From contig NZ_LGAK01000029.1 in the NCBI RefSeq assembly GCF_001292705.1, positions 1 through 64,000 on the forward strand: a stretch of DNA of 64,000 nt, in the 5' to 3' direction. The notes beneath the pieces are model-generated. The model worked only from the letters and a program-made list of their open reading frames with translations. It had not been told where the DNA came from and searched no databases. The DNA is from Marinagarivorans algicola (GTDB lineage: Bacteria; Pseudomonadota; Gammaproteobacteria; Pseudomonadales; Cellvibrionaceae). Position numbers and translations under genes: made by a program. Shown here one piece after another: positions 11,040 through 31,441 of the stretch. Each line of letters begins with the position of its first letter. Position 1 is the first letter of the stretch.

Positions 11040-14000
11040 CTAACACTCTTGTGATGCATCAATGTCTAACAATAAATTTTGCAGGCGGCCTGCATATTCG
11101 CCGGGTTCTTGCCATAGGCCACGTTGCGCGGCTTCTAGTAGTCGCTCGGCCATTTCTTCTAGGGCAGCTCGATTGTGCTGTGTCATAAAGGCTTGATTGG
11201 CGGGGTCAAAAACTAAAGCCTCGGCAACGCTGGCGTATTGGTAATCGTCAATTAAGTTGGTGGTGGCATCGTAGGCAAACAAATAATCGACACTGGCGGC
11301 CATTTCGAAAGCGCCTTTATAGCCATGCTCTTGCATACCGGCAATCCATTTGGGGTTTAATACTCGTGAGCGAATAACACGATTAAGCTCTTCTTTGAGC
11401 AGCCTTATTTTAGGTTGCGAAGGGTTGGAATGGTCGTTGTGATAAACCACCGGCTCGCTGCCAGAAAACGTTGCAATAGCGTTGGTCATACCCCCTTGAA
11501 ACTGATAATAATCATCGGAGTCTAGTAGATCATGTTCGCGGTTATCTTGGTTTTGCACCACAGTTTCAAGATGGCTTAAACGATATTGGAAACTTGCTTT
11601 AGCTTGCTTACCCTCTTGCGAGTCTTTATCTGCCCCGTAAGCATAACCGCCCCAATTTAAATACGCTTCGGCGAGGTCATCGCGACTCTCCCAGCAGCGC
11701 TCATCAATGAGGCCTTGCAAACCGGCACCATAGGCGCCGGGCTTACTGCCAAAAACACGGTAGCTTGCCTCGCGCTTTGCGGTTTGCTCATCTATGCCTT
11801 GGGCCAATAATTCGCGCTGACGACATCGAATATTCTGCCTAATGGTATTGCCATTACCCGGCTCTTCATAATCGGCAATGGCTTGTACGGCAGTATCGTA
11901 TAAGCGCATGACATTGGGAAAGGCATCACGAAAGAAACCGGACACCCGTAAAGTCACATCGACTCGCGGGCGGTTTAATAACATGGTGGGCACAATTTCA
12001 AAATCAATAACGCGATGTGAACCAATTGCCCACAAAGGCTTAATGCCCATTAACGAAAAGGCTTGGGCAATATCGTCGCCACCTGTACGCATGGTGGCCG
12101 TGCCCCATACCGATAAACCCAGTTGCTTAGGGTAATCGCCGTGCTCTTGCAAGTGCCGCTCAATTAATGCATTAGCCGAGCGCTCGCCAATGGCCCAAGC
12201 CGCAGGCGAAGGAATAGAACGACTATCGACCGAATAAAAATTGCGCCCTGTAGGCAAGGTATCTAAACGGCCACGCGTCGGTGCACCGCTTGGACCAGGC
12301 TCTACAAATAAACCCGATAAGCCTCGCATTAAGGATTGAATTTCGAGGACTACGCTTTTTTGTAAGGCCATGTGTATAACGGTTTTGGCATACGCACATT
12401 GCTCGGCTGTTTTAGGAAAGCGCTGACTAAACACGGTAGGTATTGTACCGCTAATAATATATTGCTCGATCCATTGCATGGCCAATAGCTCTAACCGCTC
12501 GCGGGTATCGGCGGTGGTGCGCCACGGGCGAGAGTCGACAGCCTTTAATTCAGGAGGCTGTGCGCCTTGCCATTGCTCTATAGGCTCTTGCAGTGGATCG
12601 AATATTTGACCCTTATGCAGCAAAGCCATATCGGCTGCTAAATTATGCAAAATGCCTTGCTCGGTGACAGCCGAGCCTCGCGGCAAACGCAACAAGGCGA
12701 CTAAAGTATCGCTGAGTTTATCGGCTTCGGGCAGCATCCCCAATATATGGAGACCATGACGAATTTGGGCTTCTTTAATATCACAAAGATAGCTGTCGAT
12801 ATCGTTGAGTAAGACCTCATCGGTGTTGGCCGGGTTAATACTGGCAGCCCCAGTATTATTATGTGGCGTTTTGTTAGCACCTTGGGATGAACGGGCGAGT
12901 TCTTGCAAAATATTGGTGCGCTTAACGTGCTCTAATATTTGCTCTTTGAGCCAAGTTTCGCGGCGTATATCCATGCCCATTGCTTGATAATATTCATCCA
13001 CTAATCCTTCAAGTTCGGCTAAATCACCGTACACCTCGGCACGTGTCATAGGCGGCATAAGGTGATCAATAATCACCGCTTGGGTGCGGCGCTTTGCCTG
13101 CGCACCTTCGCCGGGATCATTGACAATAAACGGGTAAAAATGCGGCGTGGGCCCAAGGGCAATATCGGACCAGCAGCATTCACTTAATGCCGAACCTTTG
13201 CCGGGCAACCACTCTAAGTTGCCATGTTTGCCGACATGTACAATGGCATCTACGCCATACTCAAAGCGCATCCAAAAGTAAAAGGCTAAATAACTGTGCG
13301 GCGGAATTAAATCGGGGTCGTGATAGTTAGCGGCTAGATCCATATTAAAACCACGCGCAGGTTGAATACCCACAAAAGTTTCGCCCAAACGAATACCTGC
13401 CAGCATAATGCGTCCATTACGGCACTTAGGATCTTGCCATGGGTCGCCCCAGCGCTCGCGTATGGCTTTTTGGTTGGCCTGTGGTAAGCGGGCAAAGTGG
13501 CGCTGGTAATTTTCAAGGCTAATACTTTGCCAGCACGGCAAGTGATGCAGGGTATTGGGGTTGTTGGTAACCGCGCCTAATAACGCGTGAATTAACGCGG
13601 TGCCATCGGCGGGTAAATCGCCTACCGGATAATTATTATCGGCTAAGGCCTGTAAAATATTTAAGGTGGACGCTGGTGTATCTAACCCTACCCCATTACC
13701 AATACGACCGTCTTTTGTTGGGTAATTAGCCAGTATTAATGCTAGGCGCTTTTGTGAATTGGGCTTAAATGACAGCTGAATATAGCGTGCAGCCAACTGC
13801 GCAACAAAGCTTGCACGCTCTTGATGTAAGGTATAACACACCACTGCTATTTGGCAGCGCTCACTCCAAAAAGCTTCGGCTTTAAAGCTGACGGCACGGG
13901 TAATAATGCGACCGTCCATTTCGGGTAATACCACTTGCATGGCAATATCACGAGCACGTAAACCTTGGCTATAACTTTGCCAATCGTTTTGGGTACTACT

Positions 14001-15020
14001 GGATAAAACTAACTGAAACACTGGAATGGCGCGGTAAAACGGTGAAATAAAATCAGTCGGTTGCGAGGCCAAATCGGGGCTAGATACAGTATTGCACGCA
14101 AAACCTGTAGTATTGATAATTAACTTAGCATCGGTCCTATCAATTAATGCATTAACTAACGCCAATGATTCGGCATCTTTTAACGAGGCGATAGCAATGG
14201 GCAGCGGCTGTAAGCCCTCGCGCTCTAAAGTGGCAATGAGTTGATCAAACATGCCGGTATTAGCGCTTTGTAAATGACTACGATAAAACAAGACAACACA
14301 CACTTTTAGGTGTATTGCACTGCCCTGATCAACTGTATTTTCCTTAGCGGTGTTGCCCTTAACTGCACCGCTGTCGCGCGGCATAATTTGTGAGGGTAAG
14401 TTGGGTGTTGTATTACGCCATCGCTGCTGCCAGTCACTCAAGCTCGCTTGTGAATGTTTGAGTGACGAGTCAGGCATATACATCATGCAATGCGGTAAAG
14501 GCTGAGGCTCATGCCACGGATAAGACTGTCCAAAATAGTGTGCGGCTAAAAATGTGAGTAACTGGCGGTTATTGAGCGCACCGCCTTGGCGTAAATAACG
14601 CCAAACACGAGTGGCCTCATCAAAAGGCACACTTGAGCACTGCATTAATGCTTTATCTTCAGTATCGTCGCCAGGCACTAAAATTAATGTGCGGCCAGCA
14701 CCTTGTGCTTGCCACTCAATTAATTGATCAAAACCATATTGCCAATAGCTTGCGCCACCGAGCATCGATACCACAACCACTTTTGCATGATCTAAGGTTT
14801 TGTCGCGGTATAAATCAAAGGCGGCTGGTTTTAATACGTTCATCCAATTGGCGAGACGAAGAGTGGGAAAGGTGCTGGGCAAAGCATCGGCGCTTGTAGC
14901 AAGTGCTGCTAAAGCGCTGTCAGCGGCCGATAGTATAACGATATTACCCGGCGACTGATCGAGATCAACAATCCCTTCATCATCAGTAAAACCACCGGGT
15001 TGTGCTGCGAATAAATGCAT
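11040..15020 (-). CDS. cobN: Cobaltochelatase subunit CobN
   Basis: The large subunit (1326 aa) of the ATP-dependent aerobic-type cobaltochelatase, which inserts Co2+ into hydrogenobyrinic acid a,c-diamide. It belongs to the CobN/BchH/ChlH family. Recognisable stretches include HVGKHGNLEWLPGKG, the SECCWSDIALGP segment, RVDVTLRVSGFFRDAFPN and the C-terminal RVLNPKWIAGMQEHGYKGAFEMAASVDYL region (given here in pieces). The length fits CobN. Its ATPase partner is probably the ChlI/ChlD fusion encoded 13 kb away, because no cobS or cobT is seen. It is preceded by cobW with a 25-base gap. A late-insertion chelatase is unexpected beside CbiX, CbiG and CbiD. Confidence 0.95.
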   Translation of the reverse strand: MHLFAAQPGGFTDDEGIVDLDQSPGNIVILSAADSALAALATSADALPSTFPTLRLANWMNVLKPAAFDLYRDKTLDHAKVVVVSMLGGASYWQYGFDQLIEWQAQGAGRTLILVPGDDTEDKALMQCSSVPFDEATRVWRYLRQGGALNNRQLLTFLAAHYFGQSYPWHEPQPLPHCMMYMPDSSLKHSQASLSDWQQRWRNTTPNLPSQIMPRDSGAVKGNTAKENTVDQGSAIHLKVCVVLFYRSHLQSANTGMFDQLIATLEREGLQPLPIAIASLKDAESLALVNALIDRTDAKLIINTTGFACNTVSSPDLASQPTDFISPFYRAIPVFQLVLSSSTQNDWQSYSQGLRARDIAMQVVLPEMDGRIITRAVSFKAEAFWSERCQIAVVCYTLHQERASFVAQLAARYIQLSFKPNSQKRLALILANYPTKDGRIGNGVGLDTPASTLNILQALADNNYPVGDLPADGTALIHALLGAVTNNPNTLHHLPCWQSISLENYQRHFARLPQANQKAIRERWGDPWQDPKCRNGRIMLAGIRLGETFVGIQPARGFNMDLAANYHDPDLIPPHSYLAFYFWMRFEYGVDAIVHVGKHGNLEWLPGKGSALSECCWSDIALGPTPHFYPFIVNDPGEGAQAKRRTQAVIIDHLMPPMTRAEVYGDLAELEGLVDEYYQAMGMDIRRETWLKEQILEHVKRTNILQELARSSQGANKTPHNNTGAASINPANTDEVLLNDIDSYLCDIKEAQIRHGLHILGMLPEADKLSDTLVALLRLPRGSAVTEQGILHNLAADMALLHKGQIFDPLQEPIEQWQGAQPPELKAVDSRPWRTTADTRERLELLAMQWIEQYIISGTIPTVFSQRFPKTAEQCAYAKTVIHMALQKSVVLEIQSLMRGLSGLFVEPGPSGAPTRGRLDTLPTGRNFYSVDSRSIPSPAAWAIGERSANALIERHLQEHGDYPKQLGLSVWGTATMRTGGDDIAQAFSLMGIKPLWAIGSHRVIDFEIVPTMLLNRPRVDVTLRVSGFFRDAFPNVMRLYDTAVQAIADYEEPGNGNTIRQNIRCRQRELLAQGIDEQTAKREASYRVFGSKPGAYGAGLQGLIDERCWESRDDLAEAYLNWGGYAYGADKDSQEGKQAKASFQYRLSHLETVVQNQDNREHDLLDSDDYYQFQGGMTNAIATFSGSEPVVYHNDHSNPSQPKIRLLKEELNRVIRSRVLNPKWIAGMQEHGYKGAFEMAASVDYLFAYDATTNLIDDYQYASVAEALVFDPANQAFMTQHNRAALEEMAERLLEAAQRGLWQEPGEYAGRLQNLLLDIDASQEC

Positions 15021-15045: not shown

Positions 15046-16137
15046 TTAAGCGGTGGCCCGTTCGGCTTCTTTTAAGGCTGTGGTGATTTGAGTTTGAGTA
15101 ATCCCTTTGCCAATAAACACCAAGTGTGTTTGGCGTACATCATCGGCTTGCCATAATCGATCAAAATGTACATCTAAACGTTTGCCTACCGCTTGCAATA
15201 CTTGCCTCATAGGTTTGTCTGGTAATGCAGCAAAACCTTTTGCACGGAATATATTGTATTGCGCCAGTAAATTTTTAAGGATATTTTGTAATTTATCCCC
15301 ATCGACCTCACCCAAAGTAATAACAAAAGAGTCAAAGTGATCGTGGGCATGGTCGTGATGGTGACCATGCACATGGTGGTGGTCATGATGATTATGCACA
15401 TCATCAATGCTATCTTCTGCCGCAGATTGGATACCCATTAACACATCAAGTTCGGCTTTGCCGTTATCAATATATGTGGTTTTAACCGCGGCGGGGACTT
15501 TAGCATCGATAATGGCTTTAACTTTGTCGCGCGAGGCCCGGTCCAGTAAATCATTTTTACTCACGACAACTAAGTCGGCCGCGCTTAATTGATCTTCTAG
15601 TAGCTCTTGTAAACTAGGGTCGTGATCTAGGCTGTCATCAGCCAAACGCTGCGCTTCAATGTGCGCTTCGTTATCGGCAAAGCGGCCTGCGGCAACAGCC
15701 GGCCCATCAATGACGGTAATAACGGCATCAACGGTGCAATATTGTTTGATTTCTGGCCAATTAAAGGCCTGCACTAATGGCTTAGGTAACGCGAGGCCCG
15801 ATGTTTCAATTAAAATATGGTCAATGTCATCGCGGCGCGCAACGAGTTCTTTCATGACGGGTAAAAATTCTTCTTCTACGGTGCAGCAAATACACCCATT
15901 AGCCAATTCATAAATACCGTTTTGACTCTCGGCAACGGTTGTCGCTTGCTCACCCTCTTCGCAATCTAGCGGGCAACTGCGCAACAAATCGGCATCAATA
16001 TCTAATTCACCAAACTCATTCACAATAACAGCAATACGCTTACCCGCCGCTTGCTTTAAAACATTAGACAATAGCGTCGTTTTACCGCTACCTAAAAAGC
16101 CGGTAACTATTGTGGCAGGAATTTTATTCAGTTGCAT
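15046..16137 (-). CDS. cobW: CobW-type G3E GTPase metallochaperone
   Basis: A COG0523/CobW GTPase with P-loop GFLGSGKT at residues 13-20, the metal-binding CxCC motif in [19 protein letters not shown] as G4, and a His-rich stretch ([23 protein letters not shown] in part) before the CobW C-terminal domain. CobW is thought to deliver cobalt to CobN; its position directly upstream of cobN supports that. The frame is open to 16170, but family homology begins at [14 protein letters not shown], so the ATG at 16137 is used, with AAGG upstream. Relatives serve zinc, so metal identity is inferred from context. Confidence 0.93.
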
Positions 16138-16522
16138 GAAATATGCCTTAAAAATACAAATAAGGAGCAAGGCTCCATTGAGGTTAAAAATGATTGATGA
16201 TTACCATACGCTGTGTGCATAAAAAACCGGATGCCAAGCGAGTGCTTAAAGTGTACCTCAGCCAAACTCACTGCTAACTAACATCCTGTAATTTTTGTGT
16301 GCCAAGTGTATTAAAACAACCACCAACATAAGATAGCACTGAGTATACAGACTCAATAGCCGCGCTTAAACCTGCTATTGCCATCGTAAAACAAGGTATT
16401 TCTTATTGACGATAAAAAAAGCGCAAACCTTATCAACATTTGTTAGTCTTTTTCACGGAAATAAGCCTCGCATGTAGTCTCGCTACTTTCACAGATTTGT
16501 TAAATCCGCGATAATAACCGGC
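16138..16522. promoter_or_regulatory. Divergent promoter region between cobW and the lipoprotein-cbiX genes
   Basis: 385 bases with start codons facing outwards on both sides, so at least two promoters must lie here. A small GGAGC / GCTCC hairpin (16164-16176) is close to the cobW start. I searched both strands for cobalamin riboswitch boxes and found none, so B12 control by riboswitch seems absent here. No confident Zur or other operator was seen. Confidence 0.5.
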
Positions 16523-17023
16523 ATGAAAATTAAACATTGTTATAACATATTAAGTTTTTTATCTCTTGCAGCCACATTAAGCGCCTGCCGAAATACCGAC
16601 GGTAGTTTGACTGCCGCACAAATGAATACAACCATTAATACAGCCTCCTCAAGCATGCACGACCATAGCCAACACAAACATGGCAATGTGGATATCACTG
16701 ATTTTGGTGCCGATGCTGCGGTACCGTCCATTAGCTTCACCATTAAAGCCGATAGCATGAGTGGCTGGAACATACAGATACACACACAAAACTTTACCTT
16801 TACACCCGAAAAGATCAATACTCCAGCAACATTAGGTGAAGGGCATGCTCATATTTTTGTGGATGGCTATAAAATAGCGCGTATTTACAGCCATTGGTTT
16901 CACCTTAAAGCATTAACACCGGGCAACCACGAAGTGCGCATTAACCTTAATTCTAATAGTCACGAAAACTGGAGTCATGAACAAAAAATAATTAGCGCCA
17001 CACACCCTATTATTCAGCATTAA
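16523..17023 (+). CDS. Histidine-containing periplasmic lipoprotein, likely metal-binding
   Basis: A 166-residue protein with a lipoprotein signal (hydrophobic run, then LSAC with Cys at 22). Next comes a His/Met-containing segment (SSMHDHSQHKHGN) and a small beta-rich domain with FTIKADSMSGWNIQI and GEGHAHIFVDGYKIARIYSHWFHL, which resembles cupredoxin-like metal-binding folds. It is 23 bases upstream of cbiX and divergent from cobW-cobN, suggesting a periplasmic cobalt- or other metal-binding function feeding this pathway. I do not recognise a named family, and function is inferred from composition and context. An unrelated copper or zinc chaperone is the main alternative. Confidence 0.8.
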   Translation: MKIKHCYNILSFLSLAATLSACRNTDGSLTAAQMNTTINTASSSMHDHSQHKHGNVDITDFGADAAVPSISFTIKADSMSGWNIQIHTQNFTFTPEKINTPATLGEGHAHIFVDGYKIARIYSHWFHLKALTPGNHEVRINLNSNSHENWSHEQKIISATHPIIQH

Positions 17024-17046
17024 CACATCACACTGCGGTACATAAG

Positions 17047-18207
17047 ATGAGCACACTCGAACAATTGCCAGATAACGCTGGCGTACTAATTTGCGGGCAC
17101 GGTAGCCGTGCAAAAATTGCTGAAAGAGAATTCAGCTTATTAGCTAAAGGGCTACGCGATCGCCATCCATCACTCAAAGTAGAGTATGGATTTCTAGAAT
17201 ACTCTTCACCCAATATGCATATGGCTTTAGACCGCTTAATGGCACAAGGTGTGGAAAAAATTTACGCGGTACCAGGCATGTTATTTGCGGCCACTCACGC
17301 ACAAAATGATATCCCCTCGGTATTGACCACCTATCAAGAAAAACACCTAGGTTTAACGATCGAGTATGGCCAAGAGCTTGGCTTACACACCGAAATGGTT
17401 CAAGCTTTTCAAATACGTATACTAGAAGCGCTAGGCCTAGAGCATGTACATGACGGCGACCTTTACGACACGATGTTAGTAGTTGTAGGCCGTGGAACGT
17501 CGGTCAGCGAAGCCAATGCGGAGGCGGCTAAGCTTACCCGTATCGTCTCAGAAAATTTAGGCTTTGGCTGGTCAGAGACTGTGTACTCGGGTGTCACTTA
17601 CCCCTCGGTGGGCCGCGGTTTAGAGATGGCCGTAAAGTTAGGCTTTAAAAAAATTGTGGTTGCGCCCTACTTTTTATTTGGAGGCAAGCTTATTGATCGC
17701 ATTTATGCTTACACCGATAAAGTTGCCGCCGAAAACCCCGATATTACTTTTATGAAAGCCGGTTATTTAAAAGACCAGGCACATGTAATTAATACCTTTA
17801 CACAGCGCATAGAAGAAACCATTGCAGGCCCTGCACCGGCATTAAACTTAATGCAAAACTTTAAGCGGCGCTTAGCATTGGGCGAGGTGGATGTACATCA
17901 CCATCATGCCGAGTTCCAACCAGAATCTGCAGCCGAGGCACATAAGCACGCCGATGAAAAACACGAGCATGCACATCCTCACGAACATAAGCATGAAGGC
18001 GGTCATGAGCACGGCCATGGTCATTCACACAGCCATGGACACTCACATGCACCGTATAAACATATAGGGCATCCGCATGGCCCTAGAACGATGATTCATG
18101 AAAATGTATGCTGTTGTTTTATGGGGCAATTCCCGCAGCATATTATTGACGAAGAAATGGCCAATAAAGTAGAAATACCCGGCACACCTAGCTGCAAGAA
18201 AAACTAA
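17047..18207 (+). CDS. cbiX: Sirohydrochlorin cobaltochelatase CbiX, long form with His-rich tail
   Basis: This class II, ATP-independent chelatase inserts Co2+ into sirohydrochlorin, the committed step of the early-cobalt route. It has two tandem CbiX halves: the first with catalytic His in ICGHGSR (His18), the second with VVVGRGTS in the equivalent place, as in long CbiX forms. VAPYFLFGGKLIDRI is also conserved. After about residue 280 comes a very His-rich stretch (about 290-345), then NVCCCFMGQF, whose Cys cluster is common in this subgroup and may bind metal or an iron-sulfur centre. It is probably in an operon with the lipoprotein upstream and convergent with cobM. Confidence 0.93.
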   Translation: MSTLEQLPDNAGVLICGHGSRAKIAEREFSLLAKGLRDRHPSLKVEYGFLEYSSPNMHMALDRLMAQGVEKIYAVPGMLFAATHAQNDIPSVLTTYQEKHLGLTIEYGQELGLHTEMVQAFQIRILEALGLEHVHDGDLYDTMLVVVGRGTSVSEANAEAAKLTRIVSENLGFGWSETVYSGVTYPSVGRGLEMAVKLGFKKIVVAPYFLFGGKLIDRIYAYTDKVAAENPDITFMKAGYLKDQAHVINTFTQRIEETIAGPAPALNLMQNFKRRLALGEVDVHHHHAEFQPESAAEAHKHADEKHEHAHPHEHKHEGGHEHGHGHSHSHGHSHAPYKHIGHPHGPRTMIHENVCCCFMGQFPQHIIDEEMANKVEIPGTPSCKKN

Positions 18208-25548: not shown

Positions 25549-26220
25549 TCAACTTGCCTGCAATAACCAATAACTGCCCAATGCGATAGACGACAGCGCT
25601 AAGCCATGACGACTTAACTGAAAGATCACATGAGAGCGACGACTTAAAAATTGTTGAATATGCGCAAACCCTAAACCAAAAAATAACATAGACAGCATCA
25701 CGCCCAATGAAAAAATAACAAGGTACAGCATAGCTGGCATAAACTGGCCATTTGCCACAGCAGGAATCAACGCCAACGCCGGTGCACTGCCTGCCAAACC
25801 ATGTAACATACCTACAAATACGGGTTTGTGACTGTGCTTGGTAGTATGCGCATGAGTATTTTCGTACCAATGAGCATGCACAATATCGCCGTGACTGTGT
25901 CGCTCAAAGGTGAGCTTGTCTTTGCGGATACGTATAACGCACATCACCCCCAATACAATTAACAAGACACCCACGCTCATTTCGGCCGTTTTTTGTATGC
26001 TCTCGGGAATGGGCACCCCCACACCAAACAGTAATATACCGCAGCACAAGAGCATGCCACCATGCCCCAGCGCCCAGCGGCCGCTTTGCACCAAGGTTCG
26101 TTTAATACTGGTTTTTTGGCTGTTTAAAACCGATACCGCCATAATATGATCGGCATCTAGTGCGTGCATTAGCCCCAAACCAAAACCCACCAATAATAAT
26201 AAAAAAGTATCAATTGACAT
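25549..26220 (-). CDS. NiCoT/UreH-like nickel-cobalt transporter
   Basis: A polytopic membrane protein (223 aa, about six hydrophobic segments) with HALDADH at about residues 20-26, the HX4DH signature of nickel/cobalt transporters, in its first membrane segment. A GRWALGHGGM motif follows. A His-rich cytoplasmic loop (HSHGDIVHAH...HTTKHSH, about 108-130) may hold metal. It lies between cobB and cbiD in the B12 operon, so cobalt is the likely substrate. It is shorter than classical HoxN/NixA and closer to the UreH-like branch. Import rather than export is inferred from context. Confidence 0.82.
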   Translation of the reverse strand: MSIDTFLLLLVGFGLGLMHALDADHIMAVSVLNSQKTSIKRTLVQSGRWALGHGGMLLCCGILLFGVGVPIPESIQKTAEMSVGVLLIVLGVMCVIRIRKDKLTFERHSHGDIVHAHWYENTHAHTTKHSHKPVFVGMLHGLAGSAPALALIPAVANGQFMPAMLYLVIFSLGVMLSMLFFGLGFAHIQQFLSRRSHVIFQLSRHGLALSSIALGSYWLLQAS

Positions 26221-28151: not shown

Positions 28152-30125
28152 TCACACCATTAAGGGAAGATATTGCGCATTAAATAAGGCTGCAATATGC
28201 TTGGCTTTGCCGCGCTTGACTTGCGATTGTTCGATATCCACCACAATCACCTCACCGCTTAGTTGCTGTGTGCACTCAAAATGACGGATTCGGCCATCGG
28301 TGAAAATATAATTCTTGAAGATAACCGATGGGTTTTTTTTGAGTTGTGCGCGCTGTATTTTAGCGGCCTCATCAATAGCACTATGCAAGGGTGTGCCGCC
28401 GCCTGCCGTAATAGCATCTAATACATCACCCATAGCCTTAGGTGCGCGGCGTAAGCCCATAACAGTACGCACTTGCTCAGCGCCAAAACCCAACAAAGAA
28501 AATTGCTCGCGATGCAAATAAGCCTGCTCGGCAATTTGAAGAATAAGCCCCTTGGCTTTGGCGAAACCTTGATTCGCCAAAATCGAGCCCGATGTATCGA
28601 GTAAAACCAAATGAATAATACTTTGCCGCCGCTTAGGCTGACAAAAGCGCAAGGTTTTTAAAGGCCATTGCCCAAGGTTTACCATGAGCGTATTGACCCA
28701 GTGGATTTTTGTATTGGCGCCCTGACAAAATGCCCGCCCATTAACAAAGGCACTCGTCGCTTGGTGAGCATTGCGTGTGTGAGGGGGTGAGTATTGAGTA
28801 GCTGCGCCGTATTGCGCTAAAGCCCCTGGCAGCCAAGCAATCGGCTTAATGGGCACTGTTTTTTTAAAACGAGGGGCTAAAGCGATTGATATTAATTGTG
28901 TTTGTTGGCGTTGCGCCGGCATCGCCCCCCAATCACCTTGCCCGCTATTGCCCTTAGTGTTTTGCTGCTGGCCTGCGTTTGCTGCCGTTGGGTCACTGGT
29001 ATTTGGGTTATTATTATCGGGGCTATTAGTACCCGAACTATTAGCCTCCGAATAATTAGCCCGTGTATTATCGGGTCGGGTAAAAGGCTTTTGGCTTTGC
29101 AACTCAGTCGGTTGATTAGCGCAGCCGCCATTGCCTGAGTCCTTGCTATTATTATTATCGTTATGGTCATTATTCGGCGAATTGCTCGTACTGTTATTGC
29201 GCCTGTGGCCTAATACTAATTCCTCTACCGCGAATACATCCTCACGGGTAACACAAGTTCGTTGCGCAAGGGCAGCATGGGCTAAAGCCGCTTGAATCCA
29301 GACAATATCGGCGCGCAAACCATCAACATAGGCAGCGCTGGCACGCTCGGCAATTAACCGGCGGCATATCATAGGACACTCAACACGAGGTAATAACGCT
29401 TGGGCTTGGGCGATAGATATCATTAACAGCTGTTGCTGTTTGGCATAATGCTGCACAAAAGCGGCGGGGTTTTTATCAAACTGCTCACGCCGTTGAACAA
29501 TTTCTATGCGCTCATCTAAATCATACTGATTAGTTAACGAGACAAACAAACCAAAGCGGTCAGTCAACTGTTCTCGCAACTCCCCCTCGTCTGGGTTCAT
29601 TGTACCCAGTAAGATAAAGTTGGCCAAATGCTGATGACTAATTCCATCGCGCTCTACAGTATTAACACCACTAGCAGCGACATCTAAAAGTTGGTCTACT
29701 AAATTATCGGGTAACAGATTCACTTCATCTATATACAGTACACCGTTATGTGCTTTCGCGAGTAAACCCGGCTGAAACTCGACAGTTTTTTCGTTTAATA
29801 CTTGCTGCAAATTCAGTGAGCCTATGAGCATCTCTTCGGAGGCACCTAATGGCAAAGTAACAAACGGGGGGGCTTGGCAGCGGCCTAATTGATCATCTTG
29901 GAGCTCAGCCTTATTTACTGCATTAACTGATCTCGGCAAAATATCAATCAAACCTTTCGCAAGAGTCGATTTAGCAGAGCCTCTCGGCCCACTAATTAAT
30001 ACCCCACCCACTAAAGGATTAACAGCGACTAATCGTAACGCCAACTTAAAAGAGGCTTGCGATGCAACAGCCGAAAAAGGGAAATTGTACGCAATGCTAG
30101 GCATCTGTAGAGACCGCTTAATCAT
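28152..30125 (-). CDS. Fused ChlI-ChlD type chelatase ATPase, probable CobN partner
   Basis: A 657-residue protein combining a BchI/ChlI AAA+ domain with a ChlD-like von Willebrand A domain. The Walker A region is GPRGSAKSTLAKG (about 44-56), Walker B is VLYIDEVNLLPDNLVDQLLD, and the MIDAS motif is DTSGS in LVLLDTSGSILANQGF, followed by GGGTPLHSAID. Between them (about 320-400) is a low-complexity Asn/Ser/Thr/Gln-rich linker. Such fusions are annotated as putative cobaltochelatase ATPase subunits that work with CobN where CobS and CobT are absent, which is the case here. It overlaps the end of cbtA. A magnesium-chelatase role is unlikely: no other bacteriochlorophyll gene is present. Confidence 0.88.
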   Translation of the reverse strand: MIKRSLQMPSIAYNFPFSAVASQASFKLALRLVAVNPLVGGVLISGPRGSAKSTLAKGLIDILPRSVNAVNKAELQDDQLGRCQAPPFVTLPLGASEEMLIGSLNLQQVLNEKTVEFQPGLLAKAHNGVLYIDEVNLLPDNLVDQLLDVAASGVNTVERDGISHQHLANFILLGTMNPDEGELREQLTDRFGLFVSLTNQYDLDERIEIVQRREQFDKNPAAFVQHYAKQQQLLMISIAQAQALLPRVECPMICRRLIAERASAAYVDGLRADIVWIQAALAHAALAQRTCVTREDVFAVEELVLGHRRNNSTSNSPNNDHNDNNNSKDSGNGGCANQPTELQSQKPFTRPDNTRANYSEANSSGTNSPDNNNPNTSDPTAANAGQQQNTKGNSGQGDWGAMPAQRQQTQLISIALAPRFKKTVPIKPIAWLPGALAQYGAATQYSPPHTRNAHQATSAFVNGRAFCQGANTKIHWVNTLMVNLGQWPLKTLRFCQPKRRQSIIHLVLLDTSGSILANQGFAKAKGLILQIAEQAYLHREQFSLLGFGAEQVRTVMGLRRAPKAMGDVLDAITAGGGTPLHSAIDEAAKIQRAQLKKNPSVIFKNYIFTDGRIRHFECTQQLSGEVIVVDIEQSQVKRGKAKHIAALFNAQYLPLMV

Positions 30126-30888
30126 GCTTTACAGGCTTTAATGCGGCGTTCAACACGGCAGCTTTTAATACCCAGCCATTCAAAGCCCAAGCCGAGCACA
30201 CGCCAAGCGCCAGCCAAAAAGCTAGGTTGCTCAAGCCACTTGCCATAATAAACTGTTGGTGTAATTGGGTAAGCGCAATAACAGACTCAGGGTCAGGATG
30301 GGTAAACATGGGGCCATCATGATGAGTGATAGTCACAGTATAAGGCAGTACAGTCAGTGCAATGCCGGCCAACTTATATTTAAGCCGTGCAAAACTCAAT
30401 ACCATTAACCCTAGCCCCACACAAACAACTGCGAGTATCCACCAAGCTTGCCTATTATTGATAGGCGCCGCTTCAACACCGGGGATTTCTGGTGGTAAAC
30501 CAATGGCTGGCGCCACAAAAAATGCGATAAAACCCGCAGCGCCCCACATAACACCTGTTAAAGCGTTAATACGGGCGGCGCCTTGCTGTTGCAACTGCGA
30601 CATGACCGACAGCAACATAGCGGCGAAACCAATACCCACCAGTACATTAGCCGCTATGGTATAACCTGTACGCTCGGAGCCATCTTGCGGTGCCCACGGC
30701 TCACCATACTCATTATCGAATAACCCACTCTCGTGTTGATGAGTGGCATGATCATGAGGGGCGTCAACTTCAAAGGCTTCTGCAGCAAAAATAATAGGAT
30801 TAACCGATAAAACTTGCGCCAAACTCAAGACAAGCCCAGCAGCCAGCCCTACTAATAAGGCGGCAATAATCGTGCGTCTAAATAGCAT
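30118..30888 (-). CDS. cbtA: Cobalt transporter subunit CbtA
   Basis: A membrane protein of about 256 residues with some six hydrophobic segments, a His-containing periplasmic stretch (APHDHATHQHESG, about 42-54) and the family segments FRRTIIAALLVGLAAGL, GEPWAPQDGSERTGYT and APAIGLPPEIPGVEAAPI. CbtA and CbtB are predicted cobalt importers typically found behind B12 riboswitches, exactly as here. The frame is open to 30936, but the family N-terminus is at MLFRRTI, so the ATG at 30888 is chosen. Confidence 0.92.
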   Translation of the reverse strand: MLFRRTIIAALLVGLAAGLVLSLAQVLSVNPIIFAAEAFEVDAPHDHATHQHESGLFDNEYGEPWAPQDGSERTGYTIAANVLVGIGFAAMLLSVMSQLQQQGAARINALTGVMWGAAGFIAFFVAPAIGLPPEIPGVEAAPINNRQAWWILAVVCVGLGLMVLSFARLKYKLAGIALTVLPYTVTITHHDGPMFTHPDPESVIALTQLHQQFIMASGLSNLAFWLALGVCSAWALNGWVLKAAVLNAALKPVKHD

Positions 30889-30984
30889 AATAATTAATTT
30901 CTTAATGTGCAGGCAACACAGTACAGGGACAGCCAAAAAAGGCGGTACCCTATATTTTTATATTATAAAATGGGACGCGAAAGC

Positions 30985-31170
30985 TTAGTGGCAAGGAAAT
31001 GCCAATGCGTGCCGAGTATCGTGCGCAGCATTGTGTGCAGCACTCATTGGCATAAAGCCAACCGCCAGCACCATGATGGCGCCAAATGTAAAAACGGCGG
31101 CATTTTGTATTAGTACTGCAGTAATGGGCTTACTGTAAACTTGTGAATCAACTATTGTATGCATTGTCAT
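30985..31170 (-). CDS. cbtB: Cobalt transporter subunit CbtB
   Basis: A 61-residue protein with one membrane segment (ITAVLIQNAAVFTFGAIMVLAVGF in part) and the invariant ending SAAHNAAHDTRHALAFPCH, a metal-ligand-rich tail diagnostic of CbtB. The ATG at 31170 has AGGA eight bases upstream. An apparent longer frame runs into the riboswitch and is not used. It is the first gene of the operon and the one directly controlled by the riboswitch. Confidence 0.93.
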   Translation of the reverse strand: MTMHTIVDSQVYSKPITAVLIQNAAVFTFGAIMVLAVGFMPMSAAHNAAHDTRHALAFPCH

Positions 31171-31172
31171 AA

Positions 31173-31202
31173 ATATTCCTAAATATGCACCCACCGTGCA
31201 TA
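31173..31202 (-). promoter_or_regulatory. Hairpin and ribosome site of cbtB, likely riboswitch output
   Basis: TATGCAC and GTGCATA (31184-31190 and 31196-31202) form a 7-bp stem with a 5-base loop immediately before the AGGA ribosome site (31177-31180). No T run follows, so control is more likely at translation than by termination. This is inferred from position only. Confidence 0.5.
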
Positions 31203-31212
31203 ATATATGAAA

Positions 31213-31400
31213 GAATTGACAGGCCGGTATTCGGGCTCCGAGAGGGCAAAGGGTATTTGCCATCGTTTACACCTTCCCAGCAATAAGCTATCGCCAGTGG
31301 TCGTAAACTACTCTTTTTACCGATGCGGGGGCAGCGATGGGGTCGACCATACTTCCCGATTATCTCTACGGATTTACACCGCAAAGCACCTGATTCGAAC
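31213..31400 (-). ncRNA. Cobalamin (AdoCbl-type) riboswitch
   Basis: Read on the minus strand, the element has in order GGTGC, the TAAATCCG and AATCGGGAAG segments, GCTGCCCCCGCA, the CCACTGG core, GGGAAGG, and the B12-box variant GAGCCCGAATACCGGCCTGTC at its 3' end (31218-31238). The flanks GAATCAGGT and GCCTGTCAATTC can form an imperfect P1. It sits about 45 bases before cbtB and should shut down the 14-gene cobalamin operon when B12 is abundant. The ends are approximate. Confidence 0.93.
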
Positions 31401-31441
31401 CGCGATACTATCAGTATCTTGCCCAAAAAGAAACGCATAAA

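Follow-up and report, generated by a model that had tools for sequence, protein, structure and literature searches.

We analysed a gene for a small lipoprotein in a 64,000-nucleotide stretch of the Marinagarivorans algicola genome (contig NZ_LGAK01000029.1, positions 1 to 64,000), referred to below as the window. The gene lies in a divergent locus, and open reading frame (ORF) calls together with profile matches confirmed the layout that an earlier note on this DNA had claimed, with CobW and CobN encoded on the minus strand and the lipoprotein and CbiX on the plus strand (Table 1). CobN falls outside the range 15046-18207 that the note covered, and the spacing between the lipoprotein gene and cbiX is 23 bp. 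The neighbouring cob operon is headed by a cobalamin riboswitch and points toward CbiX. The riboswitch is followed by a CbtB-like ORF and CbtA, and the operon also holds CbiG, CbiD, a NicO-like transporter and a ChlI/VWA protein. The upstream ATG of the CbtB-like ORF overlaps the riboswitch, so that its real start is probably internal. The genes of the early chelatase (CbiX, accompanied by CbiG and CbiD) and those of the late set (CobW, CobN and the ChlI/VWA protein) stand in one cluster between 11040 and 31405.

Table 1. Features of the window at the lipoprotein locus and in the neighbouring cob operon.
Feature	Position	Strand	Basis
CobN, late cobaltochelatase large subunit	11040-15020	-	TIGR02257 over cut-off
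CobW, cobalt chaperone GTPase, with His stretch and CICC motif	15046-16137, from its own ATG	-	TIGR02475 over cut-off
Divergent intergenic region without riboswitch	16138-16522 (385 bp)	.	Rfam scan
Lipoprotein, EGHAH family, 166 aa, lipobox LSAC, His-rich linker and domain	16523-17023	+	ORF call, lipobox pattern
CbiX, long form, early cobalt chelatase, with His-rich C-terminal tail and Cys cluster	17047-18207	+	PF01903
NicO-like nickel/cobalt transporter, same gene run as CbtA	25549-26220	-	PF03824 and PF13386 over cut-off
CbtA, predicted cobalt transporter subunit, homologous to the gene preceding EGHAH elsewhere	30118-30936	-	PF09490
Small ORF with CbtB-like C-terminus, His-rich, ending in PCH	30985-31263	-	By-eye likeness to annotated CbtB
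Cobalamin riboswitch heading the neighbouring operon	31205-31405	-	RF00174, 71.1 bits

The lipoprotein has no Pfam or NCBIfam match over the cut-off and no match among the PHROG phage families (neither of the two proteins tried there had one); the earlier note could not name its family either. We call this family EGHAH, a name coined here. The sole Pfam matches of the lipoprotein, to DUF6130 and DUF2846, are weak and below the cut-off, and 60 members of the EGHAH domain gave weak matches to 19 families at E<=0.1 (best E 7.6e-5). No cupredoxin family is among the Pfam matches of the lipoprotein or of the 60 members, and the label of a cupredoxin-like domain is not supported. The copper chaperone family PCuAC (PF04314) is absent from the matches of the lipoprotein at E<=1 and from the 19 families, and DUF4399 (PF14347, cut-off 28 bits) gave no match at all to the lipoprotein and none in a search of genome G000. 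The alignment of the lipoprotein had no match in the Protein Data Bank by sequence. What the lipoprotein does hold are the conserved G-H-A-H motif, the RxY motif, the distal His and an exported N-terminus. Literature searches, which could not query the motif itself, listed no publication on the family. EGHAH is most likely an undescribed, widespread family of small exported proteins that are predicted to bind metal.

Relatives of the lipoprotein occur in many phyla. A single-sequence search found EGHAH in 5 of 58 related genomes, and alignment searches detected it in 23 of the 144 genomes in the family draw (two marginal, G086 and G091), in 10 of 293 in the order draw (one marginal) and in 11 of 398 in the phylum draw; all of these counts include the genome of the window. 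The single-protein search of a genome-contig collection gave no relatives, and the alignment search found them there: 359 stretches match the motif, and 343 encode EGHAH relatives. The loci from this collection considered below are the best 80 of the 343 relatives, mostly from cyanobacteria, and 73 of these 80 hold a profile-found ORF. On plasmids, 22 records match; the PLSDB table lists 17 as hypothetical protein and three as PCuAC copper chaperone, and the other two are a record without a listed feature and a short hypothetical match. Neighbouring genes were named by Pfam on tested representatives and otherwise by BLAST to window or annotated plasmid proteins. The ten matches of the phylum draw outside the window genome comprise three next to CbtA, three next to YHYH genes, one with PCuAC, one with a DoxX-like protein and two divergent members, both of which adjoin a protein of no assigned family.

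To describe the conserved residues, we pooled the profile-found ORFs, including that of the window, into an alignment of 108 rows from which identical sequences were removed and same-contig copies (L080, L082, L083, L155, L203, L190) were left out. All 108 rows have H108, H110, H147, G107 and Y122, and H53 (104 rows) and R120 (106 rows) are nearly invariant. Besides the window, 68 of the rows had been fetched by a motif containing GHAH and 39 by profile or BLAST. These 39 rows keep all five invariant residues (39/39 each), together with H53 in 36, R120 in 37, E106 in 28 and W125 in 16. The invariance of the His triad in the rows not chosen by motif indicates that it is not a selection effect. 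The motif-chosen rows overstate the constancy of E106 and W125.

The genomic neighbourhoods of the family, which the earlier note had proposed as a check, map EGHAH to metal loci in many genomes. These contexts include CbiX/CobW, riboswitch-led CbtA operons, PCuAC and ZIP fusions, and copper-switch-like genes. Eight genomes have EGHAH immediately upstream of long CbiX and in the same orientation (the window, G009, G036, G062, G063, NAT4 at L079, Haliea at L081, and G229); they span at least three families (f1, f14 and f28). The two genes are separated by -4 to 58 bp (seven genomes measured), and all eight EGHAH members carry a lipobox-like motif by pattern. The arrangement of CobN-CobW against EGHAH-CbiX is repeated in NAT4, Haliea and G229. 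In the family draw, CbiX matched in 16 genomes, in ten of them as the long form at >=72% identity; five genomes have both EGHAH and CbiX, and the two genes are adjacent in 5/5. Just 5' of the EGHAH gene in G009 (L008 9930-10060), we noted by eye a repeated unit of about 15 bp, TACTTTGAATCTCAG. In NAT4 (L079 5556-7562), a gene for a TonB-dependent receptor lies between a B12 riboswitch and cobW-cobN; this receptor is a candidate outer-membrane partner for the uptake of cobalt or B12.

A separate cobalt setting was found next to CbtA. EGHAH directly follows CbtA in ten loci, namely L091, L141, L193, L194 and L195 and five on annotated plasmids, and the cobalamin riboswitch RF00174 lies upstream on the same strand in 8/8 of those scanned. 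L193-L195 belong to the same phylum as the window and to another class. A divergent CbiX follows CbtA-EGHAH in L091, and CobW-CobN follows it in L194. The plasmid loci come from Labrenzia, Pontibrevibacter and Leisingera, and CbtB is annotated there too; the EGHAH proteins of L169 and L170, and those of L172 and L189, are identical and hence not independent. Three Roseibium plasmids have EGHAH with DUF1636, and no CbtA appears in the plasmid gene table, which is incomplete. The CbtB-CbtA-EGHAH units of L169-L172 and L189 lie on mobilizable or conjugative plasmids, most of them near recombinase or transposase genes, and the unit is perhaps a mobile cobalt-uptake cassette. A gene for a phosphatase of the HAD family also recurs in cobalamin clusters (L061 8743-9360, L062 7956-8573, L091 5351-5959); it appears ThrH-like by eye and is HAD by Pfam in L061.

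Taken together, we lean slightly toward the view that the lipoprotein is a periplasmic metal carrier, serving the cobalt supply for B12 in this organism. The observed basis for this is the sequence conservation, the gene order with CbiX and the B12 riboswitches before EGHAH-CbtA operons elsewhere; from it we infer the metal, its ligands, the affinity, the direction of transfer and the contact with a partner or permease. The EGHAH domain would bind a divalent metal through H108, H110 and H147, helped by H53 or the His-rich linker. The lipoprotein would hold Co(II) in the periplasm, so that more of it reaches the permeases encoded by the riboswitch-led operon next door, CbtA and the NicO-like protein. 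In the cytoplasm, Co(II) may then pass to the His-tailed CbiX for early insertion and to CobW-CobN for late insertion. The presence of CbtA and a CbtB-like ORF behind a riboswitch in the cluster of the window itself supports this view. A narrower version, which we consider possible at somewhat below even chances, is that EGHAH is a dedicated periplasmic cobalt chaperone for B12 in two separate settings, downstream of CbtA in alphaproteobacteria and upstream of CbiX in the gammaproteobacterial group of the window, with sister branches carrying copper.

Several observations weigh against a role in cobalt supply. Half of the ten genomes with long CbiX in the family draw (G001, G005, G018, G083 and G019) lack any EGHAH match, and the protein is thus dispensable. 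Of the 33 genomes that match CbtA, three are known to have EGHAH beside it, the others not having been searched singly. Many members of the family lack a cobalt link and are found instead with YHYH and two-component genes, with DoxX-like genes, with cyanobacterial copper-switch-like genes or in PCuAC fusions. CbiX-linked and CbtA-linked members also do not form one clade in the EGHAH tree, which is poorly resolved (147 columns, 108 rows, 53 of 105 inner branches open); a single cobalt clade was not seen in it, and the association with cobalt may have more than one origin. The idea of the earlier note that the locus forms a cobalt relay from periplasm to cytoplasm is supported as regards the linkage to metal loci; the copper, YHYH and DoxX-like contexts and the long-CbiX genomes without the lipoprotein speak against a strict cobalt relay.

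The mixed contexts could be read in another way, namely that EGHAH is mainly a periplasmic binder of copper (or zinc), which next to CbiX would guard cobalt insertion from mis-metalation or buffer an excess of Cu/Zn instead of delivering cobalt. Fusions over the Pfam cut-off point to metal binding and speak for this reading, with a PCuAC domain in L140, L151 and L197 and a ZIP domain in L087. In addition, a protein with an HCxxMCG motif is encoded on the same strand within 1.5 kb downstream of EGHAH in 22/73 loci, and the upstream 3.5 kb hold genes for a c-type cytochrome (15 loci), a membrane peptidase (10 loci) and a BlaI-like protein (9 loci), a set like that of the PetR/PetP switch. Cluster representatives pass the cut-off for Penicillinase_R and Cytochrome. 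Directly downstream of EGHAH, 25 loci of the contig collection have a membrane-protein cluster, the representative of which (L138) matches DsbD_2 by Pfam. Several gammaproteobacteria have YHYH genes next to EGHAH, frequently together with a histidine kinase and a response regulator (Pfam, representatives); YHYH neighbours also occur in L191 and L196, by BLAST in L198, L201, L204 and L205, and on two Loktanella plasmids. DoxX-like membrane proteins stand beside L206 (over the cut-off), L010 and L192 (both below it). However, the riboswitch-led CbtA operons have no evident copper gene, and the adjacency to CbiX is conserved across families, and we regard a mainly copper or zinc function as rather unlikely. 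It is less probable still that the lipoprotein gene is a passenger, kept beside CbiX by operon inheritance and without a role in B12 synthesis. Such a passenger would fit the genomes in which CbiX is kept while EGHAH is a remnant or absent. In G001, of the same genus as the window, the body of the lipoprotein is missing, while the sequence on either side of it, with the final lipoprotein codons, still aligns; G005 has a C-terminal EGHAH remnant split over two frames (by eye). G018 has none, the surroundings of CbiX differ in G083, and G019 offers a short contig from a genome that is 68% complete. Yet the adjacency of the two genes, kept in eight genomes at the distances given above, and the distinct association with CbtA operons headed by B12 riboswitches argue against a passenger. 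In the sister species (L060 6801-7713), the flanks are conserved but unrelated repeat-bearing sequence takes the place of the lipoprotein body between them, and the upstream region of cobW has an additional stretch of about 120 bp.

A last alternative concerns regulation, since the earlier note had proposed control by metal rather than by B12: a metal regulator, for example Zur, would act on both divergent arms together. The statement of the note that the gap has no B12 riboswitch, and the neighbouring operon has one, was confirmed: at the Rfam gathering score the whole window has two matches, the cobalamin riboswitch on the minus strand of the cob operon and one tRNA, and no Rfam family matches positions 16000-16650 at E<=5. 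A degenerate riboswitch in the gap was rejected on the same Rfam result and on the unremarkable fold of the cobW leader (z -0.95). The absence of a riboswitch from the gap fits a joint metal switch, as do the two FUR-family proteins encoded in the genome, the weaker of which has a COG0523 gene nearby. A search for Zur operators with a palindromic motif gave no convincing site: the gap has one weak match, with 3 mismatches, on the minus strand (16379-16393), and none with 10/13 letters in a plus-strand scan. The best match near the gap, at 16538 with 2 mismatches, is inside the lipoprotein gene, and the window as a whole has 20 matches against a mean of 28.1 in shuffled sequences. Upstream of the CbiX arm, ten relatives were compared, with G005 left out. 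The blocks GCGATAAT, which is -10-like, and GGAACCTA each occur in four of them (shuffled maximum 2-3), and longer words with mismatches reach 5/10 (shuffled maxima 3-6). GGAACCTA is, by eye, part of the riboswitch flank in the four loci that have one. No operator common to most relatives was seen upstream of this arm, and no block occurs in more than five of the ten. Furthermore, four related loci keep a B12 riboswitch at cobW, before it in G062, G036 and Haliea and before a receptor-cobW-cobN run in NAT4. Control by metal in place of B12 is not supported, and we consider a joint metal switch highly improbable.

These loci also suggest what happened to the riboswitch in the window. In the same region, no riboswitch was found at the gathering score in the window, G001, G009, G018, G063, G005 and G229, and the EGHAH-CbiX arm has none in any of its eight genomes. 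The CobW-CobN tree, the deeper forks of which are weakly supported, requires four changes for the presence or absence of the riboswitch and three for the presence of EGHAH. Riboswitch carriers lie on both sides of this tree, which is explained more simply if an ancestral riboswitch was lost repeatedly, and since the four related loci keep theirs, the lineage of the window has probably lost its own before cobW. The gap itself has a -10-like GATAAT at 16510-16515 on the plus strand, and the cobW leader has a small terminator-like hairpin (16164-16176, minus strand) that is at chance level. A 17-nt block common to the leaders of the window and G062 was set aside; it was equalled by 1 of 200 shuffles, and in none of the other three leaders was it the best match. 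Elsewhere (G000:C46, L253 1488-6405), the second FUR-family gene, a possible Zur, has a COG0523 gene downstream and a TonB receptor upstream (by eye), and this region is perhaps the zinc locus of the genome.

The two chelatase-side proteins have the features expected of their families. CobW scores 450.2 bits against NCBIfam TIGR02475 (cut-off 332.1), and has the His stretch, the CXCC motif and the cobN neighbour. A His stretch was reported for all CobW proteins analysed, and 54 of 65 cobW genes for B12-regulated clusters (PMC2770081). CbiX matches PF01903 over two stretches, and its two lobes and His-rich tail are those of the long form CbiXL. CobW has 18 His, the lipoprotein 15 and CbiX 34, of which 22 lie within the 66 residues 285-350. 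The Cys cluster of CbiX is CCC at C355-C357, in the sequence ENVCCCFM, with a distal C383 and without the MXCXXC motif of a 4Fe-4S centre. This set (His tail, CCC with distal Cys, no MXCXXC) is kept in 11 aligned relatives. The His-rich CobW and the His-tailed CbiX are ordinary. Of the features that the earlier note had named in the two arms, the His run of CobW, the His-rich lipoprotein and the tail and Cys cluster of CbiX were confirmed, and the cupredoxin-like domain was not.

The periplasmic gathering of cobalt for B12 synthesis is poorly known; what CobW does in the cytoplasm was settled only a few years ago, as described in PMC7689651. As the third gene of riboswitch-controlled CbtA operons, EGHAH would give the predicted CbtAB system a partner and a biochemical handle. 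The domain, which is also fused to PCuAC and ZIP, would likewise give several hundred unnamed proteins (343 stretches) a working hypothesis.

We compared the lipoprotein and its locus with known systems. Among the closest families are DUF4399 (PF14347) and DUF2846 (PF11008), both of unknown function, which have the layout GHxH...PGxH...H in common with EGHAH. At E<=0.1, 16/60 EGHAH members match DUF4399 (best E 7.6e-5) and 43/60 match DUF2846 (best E 1.1e-4), and hhalign of EGHAH alignment A3 against five DUF4399 members gave an E of 9.1e-5 with a probability of 59%. However, the window protein is below the cut-off for DUF2846 and DUF6130 and has no match to DUF4399, and EGHAH differs from these families in the EGHAH and RxYxxWxHL motifs. 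PCuAC chaperones are also small exported His-containing metal carriers, and a PCuAC domain stands in front of three EGHAH proteins. They differ in that the 60 EGHAH domain members do not match PF04314 and in that EGHAH has mixed cobalt and copper contexts. The conserved pattern of PCuAC is His/Met, whereas that of EGHAH is His. The cytochrome c, BlaI-like and membrane-peptidase genes upstream of EGHAH resemble PetR/PetP, a switch of the BlaI/BlaR1 type described as controlling cytochrome c6 in response to copper (PMC7896320), although the peptidase of the EGHAH loci passes M48 and is below the cut-off for M56. CbiXL of Bacillus megaterium has, like the window CbiX, two CbiX lobes, a His-rich tail and a Cys cluster; its tail carries a 4Fe-4S centre and was proposed to serve metal storage and delivery (PMC7689651). 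Its motif is MXCXXC, as named in a reference title in that paper, whereas the window CbiX has CCC with a distal Cys. Finally, CbtAB (CbtA, PF09490) is a predicted B12-regulated cobalt transporter, and CbtC is listed among the predicted cobalt transporters as well (PMC2667541). EGHAH follows CbtA in the ten loci described above but is a small exported or anchored protein rather than a permease, and its gene in the window stands next to cbiX, with CbtA about 13 kb away.

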